Assembly (NCBI GenBank): GCA_018334055.1
Contig: JAGXSS010000068.1
Span: 1 to 43,045 of the forward strand
Length of the DNA stretch: 43,045 bases
DNA from: Peptococcaceae bacterium
GTDB taxonomy: Bacteria; Bacillota; UBA994
Direction of reading: 5' to 3'
Within the stretch, counting starts at the first letter, position 1, and each line of letters starts with the position of its first letter. The position numbers were made by a program, and so were the translations under genes. Under the pieces are notes generated by a model that saw only the letters and a program-made list of their open reading frames with translations, was not told the DNA's origin and searched no databases. Below, in pieces: positions 2,409-37,812 of the stretch.

Positions 2409-3551
2409 ATGAAACTAATTTCTCGTCTGGCCATGGCCATCGTGGGGGGTATCTTGCTCGGTCTATATACCCCGGCTTTCGTAACGCGCTTTCTTATCAC
2501 CTTGCAGGGGTTAGTCGGACAGTTAATTTTCTTTAGCATCCCGCTCATTATCGTCTTTTTTATCGCGGACGGGATTATCAGCCTTGGCGTCAAGGCCACG
2601 AAGCTCCTGCCCATCACAGTGGGTTTAGCCTACACTTCAACTGTTCTATCCGGGTTACTGGCCTATGGAGTCACGGTGCTTCTTCAGCCGGTCATTGCGG
2701 GTGTGGCGGGTGACATAGTCGCCGGGCAAAAACTTACGCCCTACTTTACTCTCGCCATTGCTCCGGTGTTTGGGGTCATGAGTGCTTTGGCCCTGTCGTT
2801 CATTCTCGGGATTGGAGTGGTCGTCACCGGCAGTGAAACCATGGCCCGACTCTTGGCGGACGGCAAGAAAATTATCGAACGCTTAATTGCAGGTGTTATC
2901 ATTCCCATCATCCCTATCTTTATCGCCGGTATTTTTGCCAAAATGGCGGCGGAAGGCACAGTCTTCCCCACACTCCGTGCCTTTGCCCTCGTCTTGGCGC
3001 TGGCGGTAGTAGTACAGTGGGTGTGGATTTTTGTGCTGTACGGCTACGCGGGCTTTGTAGCTAAGAAACCTGTTTTCAGCTCCATAATTACCATGCTGCC
3101 AGCCTACCTTACAGCGGTCGGCACTATGTCTAGCGCCGCCACCATGCCGGTCACCCTGCAACAGGCCCGTCAGCTCCCCATCAAGAAGGAGGTAGCAAAT
3201 TTCGTCATTCCCCTGTGTGCAACCATCCATCTCTCCGGCAGCACCATTGCCATCGCCATGTGCGCGATGGCGGTCATGATCATCACCCCAGGCTACACCA
3301 TGCCCGGCTTCGTCGGAGTCTTGCCCTTTATCTTCATGCTAGGCATCATCATGGTGGCGGCACCCGGCGTGCCCGGCGGGGCCATCATGGCGGCTTACGG
3401 CCTGCTCGGCACCATGTTAGGGTTTGGCGAAGCCGCTCTGGGCCTCATGGTCGCCCTCTACATGGCGCAAGACAGCTTCGGCACCGCGACCAATGTCACG
3501 GGTGACGGAGCGTTGGCCATCTTGGTTGATAAACTGGCTGGAGACAAGTAA
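2409..3551 (+). CDS. Dicarboxylate/amino acid:cation symporter (DAACS/SLC1 family)
   Basis: Secondary transporter that couples uptake of acidic amino acids, C4-dicarboxylates or Ser/Thr to Na+ or H+. Residues 1-380 form about eight membrane segments plus re-entrant loops. The family signature is recognisable in AYLTAVGTMSSAATMPVT (the serine-rich hairpin) and in IPLCATIHLSGSTIAIAM. The C-terminal MAQDSFGTATNVTGDGALAIL carries the NVTGD motif that binds substrate and cation. The start is fixed by AAAGGAGG 8-9 nt before ATG 2409. At 380 residues it is on the short side of the family (about 400-430). The gene is monocistronic, with its own promoter and terminator. The substrate cannot be assigned from the sequence. 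Confidence 0.88.
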   Translation: MKLISRLAMAIVGGILLGLYTPAFVTRFLITLQGLVGQLIFFSIPLIIVFFIADGIISLGVKATKLLPITVGLAYTSTVLSGLLAYGVTVLLQPVIAGVAGDIVAGQKLTPYFTLAIAPVFGVMSALALSFILGIGVVVTGSETMARLLADGKKIIERLIAGVIIPIIPIFIAGIFAKMAAEGTVFPTLRAFALVLALAVVVQWVWIFVLYGYAGFVAKKPVFSSIITMLPAYLTAVGTMSSAATMPVTLQQARQLPIKKEVANFVIPLCATIHLSGSTIAIAMCAMAVMIITPGYTMPGFVGVLPFIFMLGIIMVAAPGVPGGAIMAAYGLLGTMLGFGEAALGLMVALYMAQDSFGTATNVTGDGALAILVDKLAGDK

Positions 3552-3553
3552 GG

Positions 3554-3595
3554 AAAAGCCCTTAAGCCCCGACCGGGGACTTAAGGGCTTTTTTG
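3554..3595. terminator. Bidirectional intrinsic terminator
   Basis: Long stem AAAAGCCCTTAAG..CCCC / GGGG..CTTAAGGGCTTTTTT directly after the symporter stop. It also faces the end of the convergent thiolase gene. Confidence 0.85.
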
Positions 3596-3609
3596 GCTGC
3601 CCCGCCAAG

Positions 3610-4812
3610 CTAGACTGATTTTAGAACAACCGCCGTACCCATGCCGCCCCCGATACACAAGGAGGCTAGGCCATAAGTTGCGCCACGTTTCTTCATTTCA
3701 TAGATAAGGGTGGTGATGATGCGGGCGCCTGAACTGCCTACGGGGTGACCGAGGGCGATGGCGCCACCATTGACATTGCAGCGCTCAAGAATCCATTCTT
3801 CGCTGACCTCGTGCTCGGCGGCCAGTCCCTTGACCACTCCGAGGGACTGAGCGGCAAAGGCCTCGTTCAGTTCAAGAAGATCCATGTCCGCGAGTTTAAG
3901 ACCGGCAAACTTGAGGGCGGCGGCCGCCGCCGGCACCGGACCTAGGCCCATGACCAAGGGGTCTACGCCACCTTGTCCGATGCCCACTACTTCGGCTAGG
4001 GGAGTGAGGTTGTAGTCCTTGAGGGCTTTTTCGGAAGCAAGCACGTAGAAGGCAGCACCATCGTTAATTCCGGAAGCATTAGCGGCGGTGACGGTGCCAT
4101 CCTTCTTGAAGGCAGGCTTGAGCCCGGCCATCTTTTCGAGCGAGGCGCCGCGATTGGGGTACTCATCTTGGTCGACGATAATGGTTTCCTTGCGCGTCTT
4201 GACCTCTACCGGGCACACTTCATCCTTGAAGCGCCCGGCATCAATGGCTACGACTGCCTTTTTCTGCGAGGCGACGGCGTAGGCATCTTGCGCTTGTCTG
4301 GTGATGCCGTATTTCTCGGCAATGTTCTCAGCTGTAATGCCCATGTGCACCTGGTGGAAAGAGTCGGTCAAGGCATCAAAAATCATGTGGTCGGTAGCCT
4401 GCACATGCCCCATGCGGTAGCCGGTGCGGGCATTAGGCAAGAGGTATGGCGAAAGCGACATGCTCTCGGTACCTCCGCCGATGACGACCTGGTGTATTCC
4501 CAGGGCGATATTGGCGTAAGCGTTAATCATGGCCTTCATGCCGGAGCCGCAGACCATGTTCAAGGCATATGCCGGGGTGGTGACCGGTAACCCCGCCTTG
4601 ATGGCCACTTGCCGCCCCAGCCCCTGACCCTGTCCGGCCGATAATATATTGCCCACGATAACCTCGTCGACAGCCTCCGGGGGTAGGTTGGTGGTCGCTA
4701 GCAAGCACTTAATCACAGCAGCACCAAGATCTGCCGGGTGAACGGTAGAAAGCGCACCGGCAAAAGAGCCGATAGCCGTGCGTTTGGCAGCTACTAAGTA
4801 CACCTTAGACAT
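3610..4812 (-). CDS. Acetyl-CoA C-acetyltransferase (thiolase)
   Basis: Thiolase II family enzyme that condenses two acetyl-CoA to acetoacetyl-CoA or cleaves 3-ketoacyl-CoA. All catalytic landmarks are present: the acyl-accepting Cys in NMVCGSGMKA (about residue 89), NEAFAAQ, the His in GHPVGSSGARI (about 356) and the second Cys in CIGGGMG (about 386). I start at ATG 4812 (MSKVYLVAAKRTAIGSF), preceded by GGGAGG at correct spacing. A 45-residue upstream extension of the open frame runs into the spacer and has no homology-like features. The resulting 400 residues are family length. It is the last gene of a four-gene minus-strand operon with an SDR reductase, a GntP-type permease and a CoA-transferase, which points to acetoacetate / 3-hydroxybutyrate or butyrate metabolism. 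Confidence 0.92.
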   Translation of the reverse strand: MSKVYLVAAKRTAIGSFAGALSTVHPADLGAAVIKCLLATTNLPPEAVDEVIVGNILSAGQGQGLGRQVAIKAGLPVTTPAYALNMVCGSGMKAMINAYANIALGIHQVVIGGGTESMSLSPYLLPNARTGYRMGHVQATDHMIFDALTDSFHQVHMGITAENIAEKYGITRQAQDAYAVASQKKAVVAIDAGRFKDEVCPVEVKTRKETIIVDQDEYPNRGASLEKMAGLKPAFKKDGTVTAANASGINDGAAFYVLASEKALKDYNLTPLAEVVGIGQGGVDPLVMGLGPVPAAAAALKFAGLKLADMDLLELNEAFAAQSLGVVKGLAAEHEVSEEWILERCNVNGGAIALGHPVGSSGARIITTLIYEMKKRGATYGLASLCIGGGMGTAVVLKSV

Positions 4813-4840
4813 TCGTTTCCCTCCCATCTTCAAAATTCGT

Positions 4841-5581
4841 TTAAAGAACCAACCCGCCGTCGACGCTGAGCACTGTGCCGGTGACAAAGCGCGCCTCGTC
4901 CGAGGCCAAGTACAGGTAGGCGCTGGCGATGTCGTCGGCATACCCAAGAGACTTCAAAGGAGATTTGTCCTTCATCATTTCGAGCACTTTCTCCGGCATC
5001 TTCTCCGTCATCGGGGTGAGGATGAAGCCGGGGGCGACGGCATTCACGCGGATGCCCTTGCGTCCGAGTTCTTTCGCCCAACTCTTGGTCATGCCGATGA
5101 CGCCCCACTTGGTAGCGGCATAGTTGGTCTGGCCAAAATTGCCGTAGATGCCGACCACCGATGATGCATTGAGGATGACGCCGCCACCTTTTTCGACCAT
5201 GACGGCTGCTACCGCCTGCCCACAATGAAAGACGCCCTTGAGGTTGACATTCAATACTCTATCCCACTCGGCCTCAGTCATCTTGAGCAAGGTGTTGTCG
5301 GCAGTAATGCCGGCATTGTTGATGAGGATGTCGATTTTGCCGTAGGTAGACACTGCCGTAGCGACCATTTCGTCGACCATCGCGCGGTTGGTCACGTCGA
5401 CCACCGCCGGTATAGCCTGCCCCCCGGCCTGGGTGATTTCGCCGACCACTCTGGCGACGTCCTCTGGGTTGAGGTCAGCCACTACTACTTTAGCCCCCTC
5501 TTGACTGAAGCGCTTGGCGGTGAACTCGCCAATGCCCCGACCGCCACCGGTGACAATGGCTACTTTGTTGTTGAGACGCAT
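4841..5581 (-). CDS. SDR-family 3-oxoacyl-[ACP/CoA] reductase (FabG/PhaB-like)
   Basis: Classical short-chain dehydrogenase/reductase of 246 residues. It shows the cofactor motif TGGGRGIG at residues 11-18, the NNAG motif, and the catalytic Ser-Tyr-Lys in NASSVVG and YAATKWG. The C-terminus VTGTVLSVDGGLVL is typical of FabG. D38 after VVVAD is the type of residue usually linked to NAD(H) preference, although FabG/PhaB enzymes normally use NADPH. The start ATG at 5581 has GGAGGAGG 9 nt upstream. Because it lies 28 nt before a thiolase and in an operon with a CoA-transferase, the likely substrate is acetoacetyl-CoA / 3-hydroxybutyryl-CoA rather than acyl-ACP. That is context inference. Confidence 0.88.
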   Translation of the reverse strand: MRLNNKVAIVTGGGRGIGEFTAKRFSQEGAKVVVADLNPEDVARVVGEITQAGGQAIPAVVDVTNRAMVDEMVATAVSTYGKIDILINNAGITADNTLLKMTEAEWDRVLNVNLKGVFHCGQAVAAVMVEKGGGVILNASSVVGIYGNFGQTNYAATKWGVIGMTKSWAKELGRKGIRVNAVAPGFILTPMTEKMPEKVLEMMKDKSPLKSLGYADDIASAYLYLASDEARFVTGTVLSVDGGLVL

Positions 5582-5619
5582 TCGTTCATTCCTCCTCCAT
5601 GATTATTTTCGGCAATTCC

Positions 5620-5645
5620 AAACAAAAAGACACGTCCCTTTTGTT
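5620..5645 (-). repeat. Dispersed 26-bp repeat, copy A
   Basis: This 26-bp segment is the exact reverse complement of 13642-13667. It contains AACAAAAGGGACGTGTC and then a T-rich arm (minus strand), forming an imperfect palindrome. It sits in the spacer between the permease and reductase genes. Confidence 0.7.
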
Positions 5646-5661
5646 GGGGGGTGGCGAAGAT

Positions 5662-5695
5662 AATTACTAGCAGGGGGTGCTCCCTGCTAGTAATT
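5662..5695. other. Intercistronic perfect hairpin
   Basis: 14-bp perfect inverted repeat (AATTACTAGCAGGG and its complement) around a 6-nt loop, between the permease stop (5722) and the reductase start (5581). No U-run follows in the direction of transcription, so an RNA-stability or processing hairpin is more likely than a full terminator. Confidence 0.6.
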
Positions 5696-5721
5696 TCCGT
5701 CTGAGCTGTACTCTTATTCTA

Positions 5722-7005
5722 CTAAACAATACCGAGGCTGGCTAGTGCGATAACCACGATAGTGGCAATTACTGGATTAACTAAGGAGACCACGGCGATG
5801 TCAATATAGCTGTCCTTGTGGGTCAGGCCCGTAACCGCGAGCAGGGTCAAGACGGCACCATTATGGGGCAAGGTGTCCAGACCACCCGAGGAGAGGGACG
5901 TGATGCGGTGGAAAACCTGCGGGTCGATGCCGGTCGCTTGGGCGATGGCCATCCATTCCTTGCCAAGGGCGGTGAGGGCGATGCCGAGACCGCCGGAGGC
6001 GGAACCGGTGGCACCGGCTAAGATATTTACCGCTACAGCAGGAGAGATAAGGGGGTTGCCTTCAATGCCCATGACGAAGTCGGTGAGCTGCTTAAAGGCA
6101 GGCACGGCGCGCACTACGGCGCCAAAGCCAACGGCCGCGCTGGTGTTGATGATGGCGATAATGGAGCCGTTAGCGCCGGCGTTAAAGGTCGCCACCACAT
6201 TGTTGAGGACCGAGGGCTTGAGCGCAATCGTTAAGAGGATGCCTGAAATGAGCGCGGGGACGATGGGCCACTTGAGCAAGTTGAGAGTGCCTACTACGGC
6301 CAGGAGGGGCAGGAAGGCGAGTGCCGGATGTGGCAAGGAGGCGACATTGATTTCTTTGACGCCTTGCTTGGGTTCGGTGAAGACTTCGCCTGCCGCGGTG
6401 AGCTTAGCTTCTCTCCACTTTAGGTAGAAAAAGCCGCCCAGAGCGAGAATGAGGGCGGCCACGATGCCGAGAACGGGCGCCGCGGCAGCCGTGGTGCCAA
6501 AGTGGGTCATGGGGATAAGGTTCTGAATTTGCGGGGTGCCCGGCAGCGCCGTCATGGTGAAGGTGAAGGAGCCAAGGGCAATGGCGCCGGGGATGAGTTT
6601 GCGGGAGATGTTGGCTTCTCTAAAGAGGGCAATGGCGAGTGGGTACATGGCAAAGACCACCACGAACAGGCTCACGCCGCCGTAGGTAAGGATGGCGCAA
6701 CCGAGGATGACCGCGAGGAGCGCCTGCTTAGCGCCGACGGTCTTGGCGAACCAGTTGGCAACGGCTTGTGCCATGCCTGTTTCTTCCATAATCTTACCAA
6801 ATATTGCTCCGAGCATAAAGGCGGGAAACCAAGAGCGGGTGAAGTTGACGAAGCCGGTCATGTAGGTGTCGGTGTAAGCGGGTAGCAGGGCCAGGCCGCC
6901 GGTCAGCGCGACGATAAGGGCCGATAGCGGGGCAATCCAGATGATGGACATGCCCTTGTAGGCGAGAAACATGAGTAGTGCCAATCCGAGAAACATTCCT
7001 AACAT
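5722..7005 (-). CDS. GntP family permease
   Basis: Polytopic transporter of the gluconate:H+ symporter (GntP) family, 427 residues with about 12 hydrophobic segments. The family pattern is visible in the N-terminal SWFPAFMLGAIFGKIMEETG, the central YGGVSLFVVVFAMYPLA with FTMTALPGTPQIQNLIP, and the C-terminal SSGGLDTLPHNGAVLTLL. Members encoded next to CoA-transferases and thiolases usually carry short-chain hydroxy- or keto-acids rather than gluconate. Here the neighbours suggest 3-hydroxybutyrate, acetoacetate or a similar C4 acid (inference). ATG 7005 has GGGAGG about 11 nt upstream. An in-frame ATG at 6996 is an alternative. Confidence 0.88.
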   Translation of the reverse strand: MLGMFLGLALLMFLAYKGMSIIWIAPLSALIVALTGGLALLPAYTDTYMTGFVNFTRSWFPAFMLGAIFGKIMEETGMAQAVANWFAKTVGAKQALLAVILGCAILTYGGVSLFVVVFAMYPLAIALFREANISRKLIPGAIALGSFTFTMTALPGTPQIQNLIPMTHFGTTAAAAPVLGIVAALILALGGFFYLKWREAKLTAAGEVFTEPKQGVKEINVASLPHPALAFLPLLAVVGTLNLLKWPIVPALISGILLTIALKPSVLNNVVATFNAGANGSIIAIINTSAAVGFGAVVRAVPAFKQLTDFVMGIEGNPLISPAVAVNILAGATGSASGGLGIALTALGKEWMAIAQATGIDPQVFHRITSLSSGGLDTLPHNGAVLTLLAVTGLTHKDSYIDIAVVSLVNPVIATIVVIALASLGIV

Positions 7006-7034
7006 TCTTTGCTTTACCTCCCTTTTTTTATTGC

Positions 7035-7071
7035 ATCCGCTGCACCGTTACTCCGAGACGGTGCAGCGGGA
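7035..7071. other. Intercistronic hairpin
   Basis: Stem CCGCTGCACCGT / ACGGTGCAGCGG (12 bp) with a 9-nt loop, between the CoA-transferase stop and the permease start. There is no T-run on the minus strand. It is a likely mRNA processing or stability element inside the operon. Confidence 0.55.
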
Positions 7072-7080
7072 TACATCCCT

Positions 7081-8634
7081 TTAGTCGAGTTTCAGTCCCA
7101 TGGGTTCTTCTCTAAAGAGGCGGCTGTCCATCACCTTGAGGTTCGGGCTGATGACGGGAGCGAAGTCCATGAGGTCAAGGATATCCTTTTGGAGGTCGAC
7201 CCCGGGGGCGATTTCTTCAAGCACCAAACCTTCGTGTCCGAGGCGGAATACGGCACGCTCAGTGACATAGACAACTTTGCGGTTGTTGTCGCGTGCGTAC
7301 TCGCCGCTAAAAGTGACATGCTCCACATCTTGCACGAATTTCTTGTGGGGGCCTTCTTGGGTGATGTAGAGCTTTTCGTCGGCAATTTTAACCTGCAGAT
7401 CGCCCGCAGTAAAGGTGCCACAGAAGATGACCTTCTTGGAATTTTGGGTAATATTGATGAAACCACCGGCTCCGGCCACTCTTACGCCGAACTTGCTGAC
7501 ATTGACATTGCCGATGCGGTCGCATTGGGCTAGGCCTAGGAAGGCCACGTCTAAGCCGCCCCCATCGTAAAAGTCAAATTGATAGGCTTGGTCGATGATG
7601 GCATCGGGGTTGGTGGCACAGCCAAAGCTCAAGCCGCCGGCCGGCACTCCGCCGATAGGACCGCTCTCGATGGTCAGGCGCAAGTGACCGCCCACCCCTT
7701 CTTCGTTGGCAACAAGTGCTACTCCCTCGGGCATGCCGATACCGAGGTTGGTGATGGCTTGGGGCACCAGTTCCATGGCGGCACGCCGAGCGATGACTTT
7801 GCGCTCGTCTAGCGGCAGGGTCTTGAGCGACTGCATGGGCACCTTAACATCGCCGCAGTAGCTGGGGTTGTATTGTTCGGCGAAGGTCTGCATATGGTTT
7901 TCGGGCTTGGAAACGACGACGGCATCCACTAAGATACCGGGGATTTTAACAAGGCGGGGGTCGAGAGTGCCCTTAGCCACAACTCTTTCCACCTGCACGA
8001 TGACCAGCCCGCCGGAGTTGCGTACCGCCTGGGCAATGGAAAGGGCCTCTAGGGTGACGGCCTCTTTATGCATGGTGGTGTTGCCGTCCTCGTCGGCGTA
8101 GGTGCCGCGGATGAGGGCGACATCGATGGGGAAGGCCTTGTAGAACAAATATTCCTTGCCGTGGAGCTCTATCAGTTCCACGACATCTTCGGTAGTATAG
8201 CTATTTAGCTTGCCGCCTTGGCGCCGTGGGTCGACAAAGGTCTTCAGGCCCACATGGGTGATGGTGCCCGGCTTACCTGCCGCGATATCGCGGAAGAGGT
8301 GGCAGATGACGCCCTGTGGCAGATTGTAAGCCTTAATTTTGTTTTCGACCGCCATCTTGCCCAGCTTTGGCGCGAGACCCCAGTGGCCGCCGATGACTTT
8401 AGCCACCAGACCCTCATGGGCGAGGTGGTTCATGCCCTTAGTCTTGCCATCGCCTTGCCCGGCGGCATAGACTAAAGTGATGTTTTGTGGGTGCGCCTCC
8501 GCTACAAACCGTTGCTCGATAGCGCTGGTCAATTCCTCCGGGTGACAGTTGCCCACAAAGCCGCCGCAGGCAATGGTGGCGCCGTCCTTAATCTTGGCAA
8601 CCGCTGCCAGCGCGGTCATTACTTTAGACTGCAT
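7081..8634 (-). CDS. Acyl-CoA:acetate/3-ketoacid CoA-transferase (fused alpha-beta, YdiF/Pct-like)
   Basis: Family I CoA-transferase with both subunits fused in one chain of 517 residues, the usual length for YdiF / propionate CoA-transferase. The N-terminal half starts [32 protein letters not shown], with the glycine-rich CoA loop. In the C-terminal half, [18 protein letters not shown] holds the active-site Glu (ESG, about residue 330) that forms the glutamyl-CoA thioester. It moves CoA between acetyl-CoA and a C3-C4 acid such as acetoacetate or 3-hydroxybutyrate. Two in-frame ATGs lie 6 nt apart. GAGAGG abuts the first (8640) but is 7 nt from the second (8634), so I chose the second. It is the first gene of the operon and follows the regulator's terminator. 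Confidence 0.88.
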
Positions 8635-29608: not shown

Positions 29609-29616
29609 AGTGGGCG

Positions 29617-29645
29617 TTGACGACTACCTTTTCCCCATGTATAAT
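29617..29645 (+). promoter_or_regulatory. Promoter of mazEF
   Basis: TTGACG (29617-29622), 17-nt spacer, TATAAT (29640-29645): near-consensus sigma-A promoter just upstream of the antitoxin gene. Confidence 0.75.
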
Positions 29646-29678
29646 CATTGTAGAAACACAGAGGGGAGGCAGCTTGAG

Positions 29679-29921
29679 GTGTTAGTAAAGGTGCAAAAGT
29701 GGGGGAATAGCCTGGCGCTGCGCATACCGAAGTCTTTTGCCCAAGAGGTTAGCTTGGTATCAGGGACCGAGGCTACACTTTCGATAGTGGACGGAAGGTT
29801 GATTGTCGAACCACGTCGGCCGGAAGTTTATGTTTTAGAGAATTTGCTTGCGGAACTCAAAGACGAGCAAATCCATACCGAGCAAGGTTACGGCCACTCT
29901 GTCGGCAAGGAAGTGTGGTAG
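29679..29921 (+). CDS. mazE: MazE-type antitoxin (AbrB/SpoVT fold)
   Basis: 80-residue DNA-binding antitoxin. The N-terminal swapped-hairpin domain VLVKVQKWGNSLALRIPKSFAQEVSL is the typical MazE/AbrB sequence. The acidic, flexible C-terminal half (VLENLLAELKDEQIHTEQGYGHSVGKEVW) is where MazE wraps the toxin. I use GTG 29679, 9 nt after GGGGAGG; the longer frame to 29610 runs through the promoter. The next gene starts directly after its stop codon. It is expected to repress its own promoter at 29617-29645. Confidence 0.85.
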   Translation: MLVKVQKWGNSLALRIPKSFAQEVSLVSGTEATLSIVDGRLIVEPRRPEVYVLENLLAELKDEQIHTEQGYGHSVGKEVW

Positions 29922-30257
29922 TTGAGAGTCCCCCATGTGCCCGCTAGGGGGGACGTTGTTTGGTTGGACTTCACCCCCCATTCAGGCCATGAACAGGCCG
30001 GGCGGAGGCCGGCGGTATGCATTTCACCCGATGTTTACAACCATAAGGTGGGCTTGGCTCTTTTTTGCCCGGTCACTCTAGTCAGAAAATTCTACCCATT
30101 TGAAGTTGTTTTGCCGGAGAGCGTTCCAATTTGCGGGGTAGTATTGGCCGACCATGTCAAAAACCTCGATTGGCGCAGTCGGCGTTCTGAATACGTTTGC
30201 ACTTTGCCGCCCGAAACAATGGCCGAAATACTGGGCAAATTAAAAGCCCTTTTATAG
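29922..30257 (+). CDS. mazF: MazF-family endoribonuclease toxin
   Basis: 111-residue PemK/MazF fold toxin that cuts mRNA at short specific sequences. The catalytic Arg is in the N-terminal RGDVVWLDFTPHSGHEQAGRRPAVCISPDVYN. The later catalytic Ser/Thr is in the strand ALFCPVTL. GVVLADHVKNLDWRSR is the second family signature. It starts with TTG immediately after the mazE stop, with GGAAG inside mazE as ribosome site, so it depends on mazE translation, as usual for such pairs. The weak TTG start would keep toxin below antitoxin. Confidence 0.88.
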   Translation: MRVPHVPARGDVVWLDFTPHSGHEQAGRRPAVCISPDVYNHKVGLALFCPVTLVRKFYPFEVVLPESVPICGVVLADHVKNLDWRSRRSEYVCTLPPETMAEILGKLKALL

Positions 30258-30326: not shown

Positions 30327-30791
30327 GTGAACGAAGAACAAAACATATCGCAAATTCTTAGCGTACTCAAGGAGAAGGATTTTCGCTTGACGCCACAGCG
30401 CGAGGCGATTTTGCGCATACTCCTTAGTGCCGAGGAAAACCATATGACCGCCGAAGAAATCTATAGCATCACCCGAGCGAAAAATCCCGAAATTGGCCTA
30501 GCCACCGTCTATAGAACTCTCGATCTCTTTGAGAACTTAGGCATTGTGGCTCGCCTCGACTTCTGCGAAGGGGGTCGCAAGTATGAACTCGCCAGCGACC
30601 AAGAGAAGCACTACCACCATCACCTGGTCTGTCTTGGCTGCGCTGACATCATCGAGTTTAATGAGGACCTCTTAGACGACCTCGAGGCGCGCATCGCTAC
30701 GCAGAGCAATTTTAGAATAACAGACCATAGCCTGCAGTTTTTTGGCTACTGCAGCAAGTGCCGGGAGCCAAAAAATGCAAGCCCCGCATGA
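30327..30791 (+). CDS. Fur-family transcriptional regulator
   Basis: 154-residue Fur/PerR/Zur-type metalloregulator. It has the DNA-binding region FRLTPQREAILRILLSAEENHMTAEEIY and ATVYRTLDLFENLGIVARLDF. A His-rich metal site (EKHYHHHLVCLGC) follows, with a structural zinc site from two CxxC pairs, CLGC and CSKC. The sub-type (Fe, Zn or peroxide sensing) cannot be fixed, but the Asp in RLDFCEGGRKYE would be compatible with PerR or Fur. The start is GTG 30327 with AGGGGTGG upstream; a consensus TTGACA lies at 30267-30272 but the -10 is poor. Its 3' end overlaps the CsoR gene by 17 nt, and the pair opens the metal/selenium gene row. Confidence 0.88.
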   Translation: MNEEQNISQILSVLKEKDFRLTPQREAILRILLSAEENHMTAEEIYSITRAKNPEIGLATVYRTLDLFENLGIVARLDFCEGGRKYELASDQEKHYHHHLVCLGCADIIEFNEDLLDDLEARIATQSNFRITDHSLQFFGYCSKCREPKNASPA

Positions 30792-31038
30792 GGACATTTT
30801 GCGGCGGCTCCGCAAGATAGAGGGCCAGGTACGGGGTCTGCAGCGCATGGTCGGGGAAGACCGCTACTGTCTTGACATTCTCACGCAAGTGGCAGCCGTG
30901 CGCGCCGCGCTAGACCGCGTCGGCATGAAGGTGCTCGATGCCCATGCGCGGGGGTGCCTAGCCACGGCCATTCGTTCGGGACAAGCCGATGAATCCATCG
31001 ACGAGTTAGTGGTGGCGCTCGAGCGGTTTATGCGCTAG
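30775..31038 (+). CDS. csoR: CsoR-family copper-sensing repressor
   Basis: 87-residue all-helical DUF156 regulator. The Cu(I) ligands of CsoR are present: Cys32 (RYCLDIL), His57 and Cys61 (DAHARGC). The N-terminal ILRRLRKIEGQVRGLQRMV is the family start. The set C-H-C fits copper-responsive CsoR rather than RcnR or FrmR. The start ATG 30775 lies inside the end of the Fur gene; the frame to 30742 is out of the family start. The next gene is a CopZ-type protein with a UGA codon, which supports a copper role. No copA ATPase is seen in the window. Confidence 0.88.
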   Translation: MQAPHEDILRRLRKIEGQVRGLQRMVGEDRYCLDILTQVAAVRAALDRVGMKVLDAHARGCLATAIRSGQADESIDELVVALERFMR

Positions 31039-31139
31039 AGCGCGGTGCAGAGGGGTTCGAATAGGAGTCTGTTCCTGGGTGCACAAAGAGTAACAATTAG
31101 CAGTCCAAAAGCGCCAAAGAGTAAAAGGAGGAATATCTA

Positions 31140-31349
31140 ATGAAGGACATTTCATTTATTGTCGAGGGCATGACTTGAGGTAGTTGCAAGGCGGCCGTGA
31201 GTCGAGCTTTATCAAACTTGCCTGGTGTCAATGCGGTGACAGTAGACCTTATGAAGCGCAAAGTCAGCGTTTCATATGACCCGGACAAGGTGTCGCCAGA
31301 CAACCTTAAAGGTGCCATTACTGCCGCCGGATATGATATAGGGGCATAG
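31140..31349 (+). CDS. Selenocysteine-containing CopZ-like heavy-metal-associated (HMA) protein
   Basis: 69-residue HMA-domain protein read through an in-frame TGA at 31176-31178 (residue 13). The N-terminus is MKDISFIVEGMT-U-GSCKAAV, followed by LSNLPGVNAVTVDLMKRKVSVSYD and LKGAITAAGYDIGA, the full ferredoxin-like fold of copper chaperone CopZ. U takes the place of the first Cys in the metal site GMTCxxC. Supporting evidence: AAAGGAGG 7 nt before ATG, coding quality and length on both sides of the TGA, and a hairpin at bSECIS distance after it (31188-31210). The gene order csoR - this gene - trxB - selA - selB gives context. The protein would bind Cu(I) or another soft metal through selenolate plus thiolate. 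Alternative: a nonsense mutation of TGC. A conventional gene caller would miss the gene. Confidence 0.85.
31188..31210 (+). promoter_or_regulatory. Candidate bSECIS element of the CopZ-like gene
   Basis: After TGA and 9 nt, AAGGCGGC pairs with GUCG-(AG bulge)-CUUU around the 5-nt loop CGUGA: eight pairs, two of them G-U. The loop GU lies about 19-20 nt after the UGA, within the range of known bacterial SECIS elements. Confidence 0.6.
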
Positions 31350-31353
31350 TCTC

Positions 31354-31386
31354 GACCCACGATAATTTCGTGGGTCCTATTTTTTA
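31354..31386 (+). terminator. Weak intrinsic terminator after the CopZ-like gene
   Basis: Stem GACCCACG / CGTGGGTC with a 7-nt loop, then CTATTTTTTAT. It probably reduces, rather than stops, transcription into trxB. Confidence 0.55.
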
Positions 31387-31403: not shown

Positions 31404-32330
31404 ATGCGCGATATTTATGACGTAGCAGTCCTTGGCGCCGGTCCGGCGGGGCTTACAGCGGCCCTGTATGCGGCGCGCGCCAATCTCAAAACCGTGCTCA
31501 TTGAGCAACTAGGGCCGGGCGGGCAAATGGCCACCACCGCAACCATCGAAAACTACCCGGGCTTTGCCGAGCCGATTGATGGCGTCGAGCTAGCCATGCG
31601 TATGTTGCAGCAGGCCGAGGGTTTTGGTGCGGAAATCGTCTACGACCAGGTCGAGACGGTGGAGCTTAGCCGCGCCATCAAAGAAATTAAGGTCAGTTCC
31701 GCCATATATAATGCCCGGGCGGTCATCATCGCCACCGGAGCCTCCCCCCGCAAGTTAGCGGTGCCCGGCGAAGCTAGGTTTACCGGCCAAGGGGTGTCTT
31801 ATTGCGCTACCTGTGATGGCGCGCTCTATGCCAACAAGCAGGTAATGGTCGTCGGCGGGGGAGACACCGCTGTGGAAGACGCCCTCTTTCTGACTCGCTT
31901 TGCTTCCTCCGTAACGCTTGTGCATCGGCGGGACAAGCTCCGCGCCGTAAGCGCCTTGGTGGCGAGTGCGGTGAGCAACCCGAAAATACACTTCGCCTAC
32001 AATACCGTTGTCAAAAATATCTACGGCGACAAAAAGGTTGAAGGCGTGGTGCTAGCCGACGTAATTACCGGAGAAGAGCGGGCGATGCCGCTTGACGGCG
32101 CCTTTGTCTGCATCGGGCAGATTCCTAACACCAACTACCTCGGCGCTAAACTGCCCCTTGACGAGTACGGCTATGTCTTGACCCATGATGAGGTCGCTAC
32201 CGTTTGGCCCGGTGTCTTTGTCGCCGGCGATGTCAGGCAAAAACCGTTCCGTCAGGTAGCGACAGCGGTAGGGGACGGGGCCTTGGCGGCCCATGCGGCC
32301 GACAAATATCTGGGGGAGGCCATGCGGTGA
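31404..32330 (+). CDS. trxB: Thioredoxin reductase
   Basis: Low-molecular-weight FAD/NADPH disulfide reductase of 308 residues. It has the FAD motif [20 protein letters not shown], the redox-active CATC in [12 protein letters not shown], the NADPH motif [15 protein letters not shown] with HRRDKLRA, and the C-terminal FAD site [27 protein letters not shown]. The start ATG 31404 follows GGAGG. There is no thioredoxin gene beside it. Its position between the Sec-containing CopZ-like gene and selA suggests a reductant role, either for the selenenylsulfide of that protein or for selenite reduction to selenide (inference). Its stop codon overlaps the selA start in GTGA. Confidence 0.93.
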
Positions 32331-33724
32331 GTAGCGAGCTGCGGCGCATAATCCCCCAAGTGGACGAGGTCTTAAGGCGGAGCGAGTTCGTAGCTCTTGG
32401 CCTAAGCCATGGGCGGGTCAGCGTGACGTTGGCCGTGCGACAAGCCATTGATGAACTGCGGAACACTATTTTGGCACAAAATGAGCCGGTGCCGCCCCCG
32501 GAGGGCGTGCACGAGGCCCTTCTTAGTCGCGTTACGGCCATCCTCGGGGCTAGGCTACAGGCCAGTCTCCGGCGGGTCATCAACTGCACCGGCATACCGC
32601 TGCACACCAATCTGGGCCGTGCTCCCCTGGCCGCATCGGCCATCGAGGCCGTCGTCCAAGCGGCCACCGGCTATTCAACCCTCGAATACGATGTCGACAC
32701 CGGCGAGCGCGGCAGCCGTCAGAGCCATGTGCGCGCCTTGCTCGTAGAGCTGACTAAGGCCGAGAGTGCCCTCGTTGTCAACAACAATGCCGGGGCAGTC
32801 TTACTCGCCTTAAGCGCGCTCGCCAACCAGCGCGAGGTGGTTGTTTCGCGCGGGGAGCTAGTCGAGGTGGGCGGCAACTTTCGCATCCCCGAGGTCATGG
32901 AGCAGGGCGGCGCAGAACTCCGCGAAGTGGGCACGACCAACAAGACCTATGCCGCGGATTACGAGCGGGCCATCACCGCCCGCACCGCAGCTTTGCTCAA
33001 GGTTCACACCAGTAATTACCAAGTAGTGGGTTTTGCCGCCGCCGCCTCGCGCGAGCAGGTGGTCGAGGTGGCCCATCGCTATGGAATTTTAGCTATAGAG
33101 GACCTCGGGAGCGGGGCGCTCGTGCCCCTGCACGGCGAGCCTACGGTGGCCGAGGCCGTGGCCGCGGGCATGGACATCGTTACCTTTTCGGGAGACAAGC
33201 TTTTGGGCGGGCCGCAAGCCGGCATCATCGTCGGCAAAAAAGAGTGCATTGCCCGGCTCGAAAAACACCCCCTTGCGCGGGCGCTCCGTATAGACAAGCT
33301 GACCCTAGCGGCGCTTCTCGCTACCCTGCGTCTTTATCGGCAGGGGGCGCAAGACGAGCAAGTGCCCCTCCTCGCCATGCTCACCAAAGACCCGATCCGC
33401 TATCAAAGCGAAGCCGAGCAACTGGCGGCTGCCATAAACGCCCTGCCCGCATCCTTGCCTGCCTGGCGTGCCGAGGTCAAACCTGCCCACGCCCAAGTCG
33501 GGGGCGGCTCGCTCCCCGGCAAGGAGTTCGCCGGCTTTGTCGTCGCCATAGAGTCACCCATAGGCTGTGTGGCCTTAGAGCAGAGGCTGCGCTGCCGGGA
33601 TATCCCCATTGTGGCGCGCATCGAAAAAGACCGGGTGCTGATTGACCCGCGCTGCCTGCTTGCCGGCGACCGCGAGGAAGTCATCGCCGCCCTAGAGGCT
33701 ATAGCCGCCGAGGGAGCTCTATGA
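32327..33724 (+). CDS. selA: L-seryl-tRNA(Sec) selenium transferase
   Basis: PLP enzyme that converts seryl-tRNA(Sec) to selenocysteinyl-tRNA(Sec) with selenophosphate. The protein of 465 residues starts [52 protein letters not shown] and [10 protein letters not shown] are family segments. The PLP lysine is in [16 protein letters not shown] (about residue 291). GTG 32327 is chosen because GGGGGAGG is 8 nt upstream and it overlaps the trxB stop. The longer frame to 32204 lies inside trxB. Its own stop overlaps the selB start (ATGA), so trxB-selA-selB are translationally linked. Confidence 0.96.
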
Positions 33725-35649
33725 AACATTTTGTGATCGGAACCTCAGGGCATATCGACCATGGCAAGACGACCTTAGTTAAAGCCCTGACCGGCATTGA
33801 TTGCGACCGCTTAAAAGAAGAAAAAGAGCGGGGCATCACCATCGACCTCGGTTTCGCCTTTTTTGACCTGCCGAGCGGGCGGCGCGCCGGCATAGTCGAT
33901 GTCCCCGGGCACGAGAAATTTATCAAGAACATGTTGGCCGGCGTTGGTGGCATCGACCTCGTCCTCTGGATTGTCGCCGCCGACGAGGGCATCATGCCCC
34001 AGTCCGCCGAGCATTTGGCCATACTTTCAATTTTGCAGGTCGAGCGGGGGATAATTGTAATTACCAAGAAGGACTTGGTTGACGCTGAGTGGTTGGAGCT
34101 AGTCATGCTAGACGTCAAGGAGAGGGTTCAGGGCACCTTCTTAGCCGATGCACCCATCATCCCTGTTTCGGCGTTAACCGGGGAGGGGCTGCCGGAGCTT
34201 GCGGCACAGATTGACCGCCTCGCCGACGGCACAAGCTTAAGGGACCAAGCTGCGGCCATGCGCCTGCCCATAGACCGCGTCTTTAGTGTGCAGGGTTTTG
34301 GCACTGTCGTCACCGGCACCTTGCACAGCGGTGTGGTCACCGTGGGTGACACCCTAGAAATATTTCCTGGGCAATTGATGGCGCGAGTGCGGGGCGTCGG
34401 GGTGCATGGGCAAAAAGTCAATGCGGCCGTAGCAGGGCAGCGCACCGCCATTAACCTCGCCGGCGTGCAGGTCGAGCAACTGCGTAGGGGCGATGTCCTG
34501 GCAACTCCTAAGTATTTGTCGCCTTCCCTCATGCTCGACGTGCGGCTCACCCTACTCTCCGATGCCGAAAAAATTCTCGGCAACCGCGAACGAATGCGGC
34601 TCTACACCGGTGCGGCCGAAGTGCTCTGTCGCGTGGTCCTCCTCGACCAAGAGGCTCTGGCGCCGGGAGACAGTGCCCTGGCCCAGTTGCGCCTCGAAGA
34701 ACCCCTGGCGGTCATGGCGGGGGACCGCTTTGTGCTCCGCACCTATTCGCCCATGTCGACCATCGGCGGCGGTAGCATCATCGACCCCTTGCCCATTAAG
34801 CGCAAACGCTTTAAGGAGAGGGGCCTGGCGGAGTTATGGGTGTTAGAGAAGGGGGGCACCGAGGAAGTCATCGTGCAGGTATTGCGTAAGACGAAAAACG
34901 AAATGATTACCCGCGAGGAGCTGCTCCGCACCGTATACCGCGAAGATAAAGCCGAGGCCTTAGAAAAACTGCTCGCCGCGGATGCCGTCCATAGCTTGCG
35001 CGTTGATGATGTGGAGTACCTAGTCGACGCCCTCACCCTGCAGGTCATCGAAAAGAAAGTCAGCGAAGAACTGGCGAGTTATCATCGCCGCTTTCCCCTG
35101 CGGAGCGGTATCGCCCGTGAGGAACTGCGTAGCAAAGTCATGCCCGGCGCCCACAATCGCCTCTTTGCCTCGCTGCTCCTCCTCCTCCAGGGCAGTACCG
35201 GCCACCAAGGCGGAGCGCGGCATGTAGCCGGCAAGGACTTCAAGGTGGAATTTGTCGGCAAATGGGCCCAGAGGCGCAGCTTGGTGCTGGAACTCCTGGC
35301 CGAGGCTCTGTTTAGCCCGCCCTCTACCGAGGAGCTGGCAATTCGGGTGTCGCTTTCTTTGGAGGACCTCAAGGAGTTGCAGGACGCGCTCGCCGAGAGA
35401 GGGGAGATCATCAAGGTTGCGGAGGGGGCTTACTTTCATGCTCTGGCGCTCCGCCGCGCCAAGGTGCTTTTGCTTGAGTTCTTTCAAAGGGAAGAAGAAT
35501 TGAGCCTAGCCGCTTTTCGCACCATGATTGACTCCAGCCGCAAGTACGCCCTATTGCTGCTCGAGTATTTTGACCAGCACAAGCTAACCGTCAGGAGCGG
35601 CGAAACCAGGCGCCGCCACAGTACCTTTGACAGTGCATTTCTCTCGTGA
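33721..35649 (+). CDS. selB: Selenocysteine-specific elongation factor
   Basis: GTPase that carries Sec-tRNA(Sec) to UGA codons by binding the mRNA SECIS hairpin, 642 residues. The EF-Tu-like part has G1 [36 protein letters not shown] (switch I), [15 protein letters not shown] (G3) and ITKKDLVD (G4), followed by two beta-barrel domains. The C-terminal half (from about 380) consists of winged-helix repeats ([39 protein letters not shown]), which bind the SECIS. ATG 33721 follows GAGGGAG. tRNA-Sec lies 14 nt after the stop. Confidence 0.96.
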
Positions 35650-35662
35650 TAGTATGGTTCTC

Positions 35663-35759
35663 GGGGGTAGATAGGTTCTGGTGTGCCTTCCGGGCTTCAA
35701 ACCCGGCAGCGGGCTCTAGAAAAGTCCGCGGTGGGTTCGATTCCCACATACTCCCGCCA
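35663..35759 (+). tRNA. selC: tRNA-Sec (anticodon UCA)
   Basis: 97-nt tRNA immediately after selB. The anticodon arm CCGGG-CUUCAAA-CCCGG carries UCA, which reads UGA. A long variable arm is present (GCGGGC / GUCCGC, 6 bp). The T arm is GUGGG-UUCGAUU-CCCAC. The acceptor GGGGGUA pairs with UACUCCC, discriminator G, encoded CCA. The eighth acceptor pair expected for bacterial tRNA-Sec would be G-A here. Long D loop UCUGGUGU. All are hallmarks of SelC. Confidence 0.93.
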
Positions 35760-35857: not shown

Positions 35858-36796
35858 ATGAACATCAACTACATGCGCACCTTCTTGGTCGCTCTTGAGA
35901 CCGGCTCCTTTTCGGCCACCGCACGGCATCTCGGCCTCACCCAACCAGCCGTAAGCATGCAAATTCAAGCGCTCGAAGATTACTTCGGGGCGAAGCTAAT
36001 CGAGCGCCAGGGGAGAAAGCTAGAACTCACCCGAGCCGGCGTGCTGGCCCTGCAGAATATTAAGGCCTCGCTCGACCTGGTAGATTTGACGCGTAGGAAC
36101 ATAGACGAATTGGCCACCGAGGTCGTCGGCCCCGTGTTGGTGGGCGCCAGCACGGTGCCTGGCGAGCATCTCTGTCCCCACCTCATGGGCATTTTTATCA
36201 AGCGCTACCCCATGGTCAAACCGCGCCTGATTATCGAAAACACCTCTTTGGTCCTGGCCAGACTGCATCGCCATGAACTTGACGTGGCTATAGTCGGAGC
36301 TCCCCCCAAGGAGCTTGAGCTACATGCCGAACCGATTTTTCATGATGAGCTGATCCTCCTCATCCACCCCGCCCATCGCTTGGCCACCAAGGCGCAAGTG
36401 TCCCTTGACGATGTCCATGGCGAACCTTTCATCGGGCGCACCGCAGGTTCCGGCAGTCGACTAGTTTTAGAGCGCGAGTTGGCGCGCCATGGGTTGAGCG
36501 CCGGCCGACTGACGGTCGTGCTTGAGGTGAGCACCTCCTTGGCCGCCGTCAATGCCGTGGAGGCGGGCGTAGGTCTCGCCTTTGTTTCATCTCTTGCTGC
36601 GGGGGCCTCCATCAGGGCGGGCCGGGGGGTGGCAAGACGCCTAGAGGGATTGACATTTTCGCGGGCGCTCCACCTAGTCACTGCACCTCGCCTTTACAAT
36701 GGTCGGGCGGTTGCCGAAATGGCCAAATTCTTGCGCTCCACCGAGGCGCGCGCCGTTGTCGAAGGGAGGCAGCGCGAGTGGCAGAAATTAAGTTAA
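35858..36796 (+). CDS. LysR-family transcriptional regulator
   Basis: 312-residue LTTR. The N-terminal winged helix is MNINYMRTFLVALETGSFSATARHLGLTQPAVSMQIQALEDYFGAKLIERQGRKLELTRAG. The substrate-binding domain spans about 90-300, with GPVLVGASTVPGEHLCPHL and VEAGVGLAFVSSLAA. The overall pattern is close to the CysB/CysL/CbbR-like group that often senses sulfur or small anions. It sits between tRNA-Sec and selD, and selD begins inside its last codons (19-nt overlap), so it is translationally coupled to selD. That position suggests a link to selenium or sulfur supply. The ribosome site before ATG 35858 is poor (G-run). Confidence 0.87.
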   Translation: MNINYMRTFLVALETGSFSATARHLGLTQPAVSMQIQALEDYFGAKLIERQGRKLELTRAGVLALQNIKASLDLVDLTRRNIDELATEVVGPVLVGASTVPGEHLCPHLMGIFIKRYPMVKPRLIIENTSLVLARLHRHELDVAIVGAPPKELELHAEPIFHDELILLIHPAHRLATKAQVSLDDVHGEPFIGRTAGSGSRLVLERELARHGLSAGRLTVVLEVSTSLAAVNAVEAGVGLAFVSSLAAGASIRAGRGVARRLEGLTFSRALHLVTAPRLYNGRAVAEMAKFLRSTEARAVVEGRQREWQKLS

Positions 36797-37812
36797 CCTC
36801 ACTATCCGCAGGCGGCGGCTGAGCGAGCAAATTAGAGCCGGGTGCTCTCGAAAAAATCCTTCGTCACCTGCCCAAAGTCGCCCATCCGCGCGTTTTGGTG
36901 GGGATAGAGACCAGCGACGACGCGGGCATCTACCTGCTTAACGACAGCACCGCCTTGGTGCAGACGGTAGATTTCTTTAGCCCCATGACCGATGACCCCT
37001 ACCTTTTTGGGCAAATTGCCGCAGCGAATGCCTTGAGTGATGTCTACGCCATGGGCGGCACACCCCTTACCGCGCTGAACATCGTCTGTTACGCCAGTTG
37101 CATCGCGCCCGAAGTCATGGGTGAGATCCTGCGTGGCGGGAGCGATAAGGCCACAGAAGCCAATGTGGTCATCATCGGCGGTCATACGGTCGATAATGCC
37201 GACATCAAGTACGGCTTAGCGGTCACCGGCATCGTCAGCCCAGAGGCCATTGTTTCTAACCGCGGAGCGCGACCGGGAGATTTGCTCATTCTCACCAAAC
37301 CCCTCGGCAGCGGCATCATCGCCACCGCCACCAAGGCCGAGATGGCCGAAGCCACGCATACCACGGCCGCCCTGCAGGTGATGGCCACTTTGAACAAAGT
37401 TGCCGCCGAGGCCTTCGCTCCCTTCGCCGTCAAGGGCGGCACCGACATCACCGGTTTTGGCCTGCTTGGGCATAGCGTGGAGTTGGCGCAAGGCAGCGAG
37501 GTCGAGATTATTCTGCGGTCTTCTTCCATCCCTTTACTCCCCGGCGTTCTGGGCTATGCCGCCATGGGCTTAGTGCCGGCCGGCGCCTATCACAACCGAG
37601 CGCATTTTGGGCGCTACGTCGACTTTGCCGCGTCAGTCGATGAAGTGTGGAGTGATGTCCTCTACGACCCGCAGACCAGCGGCGGATTGCTCTTTGCCCT
37701 AGACGAGCAACAAGCCAGCGCGGCCCTCGCCGCCCTGCACAGCAGAGGGGTTCAGGCCGCGGTGGTGGGTAGGTGTGTTGCCGGCGCAGTCGGGCGCGTT
37801 ACCGTGCTGTAG
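36778..37812 (+). CDS. selD: Selenophosphate synthetase, itself a selenoprotein
   Basis: Makes selenophosphate from selenide and ATP, the Se donor for SelA. Read through the in-frame TGA at 36820-36822, the protein has 344 residues. It starts VAEIKLTSLSAGGG-U-ASKLEPGALEKIL; U15 corresponds to the catalytic Cys17 of E. coli SelD and the Lys three residues later is the conserved one. Metal and ATP sites follow: IETSDDAGIYLLNDSTALVQTVDFFSPMTDDPYLFGQIAAANALSDVYAMGG. The start GTG 36778 has GGGAGG 8 nt upstream and overlaps the LysR gene by 19 nt. A SECIS-like hairpin follows the TGA. Software that treats TGA as stop would give a truncated protein starting near 36895. Confidence 0.95.
36834..36848 (+). 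promoter_or_regulatory. Candidate bSECIS element of selD
   Basis: Perfect stem AGAGC / GCTCT around the loop CGGGT, beginning 11 nt after the TGA (36820-36822). Distance and GGU in the apical loop match bacterial SECIS elements. Confidence 0.75.

Follow-up and report, generated by a model that had tools for sequence, protein, structure and literature searches.

The window (the whole stretch of DNA that was analysed, 43,045 nucleotides) contains a small gene, copZ(Sec), whose product is, judged from sequence conservation, nearly certainly a selenoprotein: a single HMA domain with an in-frame TGA at the codon for the first cysteine of the metal motif. Cu(I) chaperones have a textbook metal site of two cysteines, and the protein is probably a CopZ-type protein of the cytosol that carries or buffers Cu(I), with selenocysteine as its first metal ligand; its role in copper handling is one that we infer.

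The copZ(Sec) gene and conservation of its TGA

The gene and its parts are as follows:

31124..31131, + strand: Shine-Dalgarno sequence AAAGGAGG, 8 nt before the ATG (direct sequence reading)
31140..31349, + strand: copZ(Sec), predicted 69-aa HMA-domain selenoprotein (Pfam HMA 75 bits; ten TGA orthologues; TAG included)
31176..31178, + strand: TGA, read as selenocysteine 13, first ligand of GMTUxxC (ten-genome conservation)
31185..31187, + strand: TGC, Cys16, second ligand (invariant across the ten Sec orthologues)
31188..31210, + strand: predicted bacterial SECIS hairpin within the coding sequence (folds; synonymous conservation at 31191-31205)

Direct reading of the DNA confirmed what the initial annotation had described: an HMA gene from the ATG at 31140 to a TAG stop (31347-31349), with an in-frame TGA in place of the first Cys codon of GMTCxxC, so that the motif becomes GMTUGSC. 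With this TGA read as Sec, the product is MKDISFIVEGMTUGSCKAAVSRALSNLPGVNAVTVDLMKRKVSVSYDPDKVSPDNLKGAITAAGYDIGA. Residues 6-66 match Pfam HMA (PF00403; E 6e-21, 75 bits, cut-off 24.8) and form a single HMA domain of CopZ-like fold. The best NCBIfam match is the Bacillus-type CopZ model NF033795 with 75.7 bits at a cut-off of 91; this is an exception-type model and the shortfall lowers confidence in the exact name, not in the kind of protein. An AlphaFold2 model, built with Cys substituted for Sec, has an HMA fold (mean pLDDT 90) and its nearest PDB structures are the CopZ proteins 6ff2 and 2qif (TM 0.94-0.96), in agreement with the sequence search; the Sec13/Cys16 pair is predicted to lie at the exposed metal loop.

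In a search of 60 relatives, all eight family genomes (G000-G007) had TGA at the identical codon, as did two further genomes of the class (G009 and G011). Each of these ten genes has exactly one internal TGA, which in the DNA invariably falls on the first Cys of GM(T/S)CxxC, Cys16 is unchanged in 10/10 orthologues and a Cys form of the orthologue was found in none of the ten genomes. The C-terminal tails differ: the gene of G005 (L050) ends in GYEGRSLSHS, in that of G003 (L048) another TGA occurs close to the end of the contig, and the last residues of both may be unreliable.

The initial annotation had named TGC in close relatives and a sequencing error as observations that would speak against a selenoprotein; the ten relatives carry TGA, not TGC, and an error at this position is ruled out because the same codon is present in all eight family genomes and two more of the class, ten separate assemblies from five genera. 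One decayed copy does exist: in the class member G013 (L133, G013:C130 1113), the Sec-copZ reads MQNITLKVVGMTUGGCNTAIP and then a stop, with no in-frame HMA remainder. The ten genes, however, have intact frames and belong to a single clade, and it is extremely improbable that copZ(Sec) is a misread or decayed Cys-CopZ.

In a tree of 45 HMA domains, the ten Sec-CopZ proteins form one clade (96/86) inside the cytosolic CopZ proteins. The domains of CopA fall outside this clade, and so do the Sec-bearing pump domains that G010 and G012 contain; the tree has few columns and its deeper forks are tentative. The simplest reading of these sequences would be one Cys-to-Sec change in an ancestor within the class. 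A TGA-motif pattern search over 398 Bacillota genomes, which allowed only Gly or Ala after Sec and is not exhaustive, returned mostly matches outside HMA genes; the HMA matches were the ten orthologues, the decayed copy of G013 and four CopA-type pumps.

The predicted SECIS hairpin

The initial annotation had pointed to a GU-loop hairpin behind the TGA. A hairpin at SECIS distance is indeed predicted: its apical loop (31196-31200, CGTGA) contains GU and lies 17 nt from the TGA, and a hairpin can be folded at this distance in the Sec copZ genes, weakly in the group of G003, G005 and G007. The GU alone is not evidence for a SECIS, because it is part of the codon for Val20, an invariant residue; what argues for a SECIS in these sequences is the conservation of synonymous sites.

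Within codons 18-22 (31191-31205), same-residue codon pairs are identical in 26/26 cases, in comparison to about 42% in codons 29-66 (four representatives from three genera). Counted by column, the figures are 4/4 against 2/25 (Fisher p = 6e-4 with four representatives; about 0.012 with five or seven, these sets being larger and less independent), for a stretch that was picked after the alignment was seen and that coincides with the predicted hairpin site. Cys-CopZ controls from three other-Bacillota groups had no consistent enrichment (0.70 vs 0.65, 0.69 vs 0.77 and 0.47 vs 0.72), while two further pairs were too small or too similar for a verdict. Hairpin energies are lower in Sec genes than in Cys genes (p = 0.015, uncorrected for relatedness).

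The two more distant Sec copZ members have hairpins of different sequence and in a shifted register. RNAalifold and pair counting detected no covariation between the hairpin's columns, because the register of the apical stem is not the same in the two families. None of the Rfam models matches copZ. The RNA beneath the predicted hairpin thus appears to be under constraint and, with the TGA of the relatives, this bears out the original reading of the gene as a CopZ selenoprotein.

Gene neighbourhood and the probable link to copper

The surrounding genes and the hairpin behind copZ(Sec) are:

30327..30791, + strand: regulator of the Fur family, at the head of the run (Pfam FUR; position conserved)
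30775..31038, + strand: csoR, repressor of the CsoR family whose C-H-C ligands are of the Cu(I) type (inferred start ATG 30775, within the end of fur)
31354..31376, + strand: hairpin resembling an intrinsic terminator, behind copZ and ahead of trxB (G001, G002 and G004 have a similar one)
31404..32330, + strand: trxB, thioredoxin reductase with CATC (family search; conserved neighbour)
32327..33724, + strand: selA, selenocysteine synthase (GTG start inferred)
33721..35649, + strand: selB, Sec-specific elongation factor (family search)
35663..35759, + strand: selC, tRNA-Sec with anticodon TCA (tRNA found in the window)
36778..37812, + strand: selD, selenophosphate synthetase, itself a selenoprotein (GTG start inferred)

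The claimed position, with csoR upstream and trxB, selA, selB and tRNA-Sec downstream, was confirmed, and the Sec machinery (selA, selB, selC, selD) is complete in the window; tRNA-Sec is present in 15/15 genomes of the class. The TGA of selD (36820-36822) gives GGGUASK; the called ORF begins at 36895, past this TGA, and would be truncated.

Members of the family share the gene order fur-csoR-copZ(Sec)-trxB-selA-selB-tRNASec-lysR-selD: fur, csoR, copZ, trxB, selA, selB, lysR and selD follow each other in G000-G002, G004, G005 and G007, G003 and G006 have the same order as far as contigs or fetched stretches reach, and G009 has it through selB. G011 has an intact fur-csoR-trxB-selA-selB cluster that lacks copZ (L171, G011:C28:38000-46000, 3211-7990), and the Sec-copZ of this genome, with its TGA retained, is found on another contig (C13). 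The terminator-like hairpin lies 4 nt past the copZ stop and about 27 nt before trxB; trxB-selA-selB may need read-through of this hairpin or an internal promoter. Before fur, two small ORFs (29610-30257) resemble, by eye, a toxin-antitoxin pair of the MazE/MazF type.

Only two other HMA domains are found in the genome, and a single CopA, which has Cys motifs and CPC, contains them both; this CopA is of the Cu type and the only HMA-bearing pump. It is preceded by a CsoR-like operator, TATACCCCGCTGGGGTATT, with any of the three CsoR-family proteins of the genome as candidate binder (one of the two paralogues is without the His and resembles CstR). The genome has three perfect TACCCN5GGGTA sites, one of them before copA; the motif alone says little, because the reversed control pattern has as many matches. 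No CsoR-like box was seen before fur-csoR-copZ. Copper is the likeliest metal because a CsoR with C-H-C ligands is adjacent and the only HMA pump is a Cu-type CopA behind a CsoR-like site. The initial annotation had left the metal as copper (or mercury/silver); these features, with the structural matches to CopZ, favour copper.

Possible functions and relation to known selenoproteins

In the proposed mechanism, SelB, Sec-tRNASec and the downstream SECIS hairpin would decode UGA 13 as Sec, and the product would fold as an HMA domain with Sec13 and Cys16 at its exposed metal loop. Cu(I) would be bound through selenolate and thiolate and may be passed to CopA, whose N-terminal domains are of the Cys type; alternatively, it may be held tightly under reducing conditions near CsoR-controlled copper efflux. 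Speaking against a copper chaperone are the absence of a CsoR-like box before fur-csoR-copZ and the position of the G011 copZ away from csoR; a tighter Sec site could also hinder the hand-over to CopA.

The redox motif that selenoproteins usually have is UxxC, and trxB is directly downstream of copZ in G000-G002, G004-G007 and G009; the protein might accordingly carry electrons or act as a selenol-thiol oxidoreductase, with TrxB serving it and metal binding playing a secondary part. We consider this unlikely, as the protein has the fold and the sequence of a CopZ, copZ is separated from trxB in G011 and csoR adjoins copZ too. Selenolate favours soft metals, and the Sec site could be tuned to a soft toxic metal such as Hg(II) or Ag(I), as in selenoprotein MerP; catalogued HMA selenoproteins include MerP and mercury-related families (PMC2398784, PMC13188914). 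This is quite unlikely given the Cu-type ligands of CsoR, the Cu-type CopA as sole HMA-bearing pump found and a conserved neighbourhood in which no mer genes were seen. The terminator-like hairpin just behind the copZ stop would suit a leader controlling trxB-selA-selB, in which the TGA would either end translation or serve as a switch gated by selenium; however, the full HMA domain is conserved past the TGA, including the invariant Cys16, and the gene is located elsewhere in G011, making a leader very unlikely.

The closest known counterpart of copZ(Sec) is the CopZ of the Bacillus subtilis type (NF033795; 2qif, 6ff2), with the same length, HMA fold and GMTxxxC loop. It differs from this CopZ in the first Cys, which is Sec, so that the two cysteines of MxCxxC are not both present, and in its gene position beside csoR and sel genes, not copA. 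The UxxC cation-transporting ATPase E1-E2 selenoproteins also have Sec at the first Cys of the HMA metal motif, but are multidomain membrane pumps; their HMA domains branch apart from Sec-CopZ, suggesting a separate origin of Sec. In four P-type ATPases of the CopA type (G010:C67:5381-5401, G012:C193:583-603, G088:C74:27094-27114 and G095:C336:584-604), TGA stands for the first Cys of an N-terminal HMA motif, GMTUAxC; they are this known pump selenoprotein.

Selenocysteine in HMA domains is known from other families too. UxxU_metal_bind (NF041115) comprises small HMA proteins with Sec at the metal motif, the motif being UxxU instead of UxxC; membership of copZ(Sec) was rejected (62 bits with Cys for Sec and 54 in the genome search, cut-off 95), and all NF041115 matches in eleven class genomes are below cut-off. 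Selenoprotein MerP and the MerT/CopZ fusion NF045683 likewise have a Sec-bearing HMA domain tied to metal handling but, unlike copZ(Sec), belong to a mercury-transport context or a fusion; NF045683 (MerT_CopZ_Se) was rejected with 33.7 of 375 bits, the 69-aa protein being without the MerT part.

Excerpts of the literature list MerP and the UxxC cation-transporting ATPase as HMA selenoproteins in an ocean survey (PMC2398784), the ATPase again in PMC5029168 and the UxxU family NF041115 in a 2026 review (PMC13188914). What these reviews enter as 'CopZ family' is a 2Fe-2S BFD-like domain (cd10141) and not the HMA chaperone. A single-domain UxxC CopZ was not found in these excerpts or in a recent selenoproteome table, although the papers behind the table could contain one. 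The initial statement that no characterised CopZ selenoprotein is known therefore holds, in these sources, for free CopZ, but not for HMA sites in general, as MerP, P-type ATPases and UxxU proteins are already catalogued with Sec. What appears to be new is Sec at the metal site of a free CopZ; we do not claim a first sighting.

CopZ(Sec) is an example of a small gene that routine annotation would truncate at its TGA. A natural Sec-Cys Cu(I) site, present family-wide beside a copper sensor, would offer a ready test of how selenium affects the binding strength for Cu(I), its exchange and the redox stability of the site; the initial annotation had proposed that such a site would change copper affinity and redox behaviour, as it may. 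One speculative and rather improbable idea is that, with the family's only dedicated copper chaperone being selenium-dependent and set between a Cu(I) sensor and the genes of Sec synthesis, copper buffering reports selenium status, and that decoding of the copZ UGA might even affect transcription through the terminator into trxB-selA-selB. More generally, copZ(Sec) would tie copper handling to selenium supply, and copper handling in these bacteria may depend on selenium.
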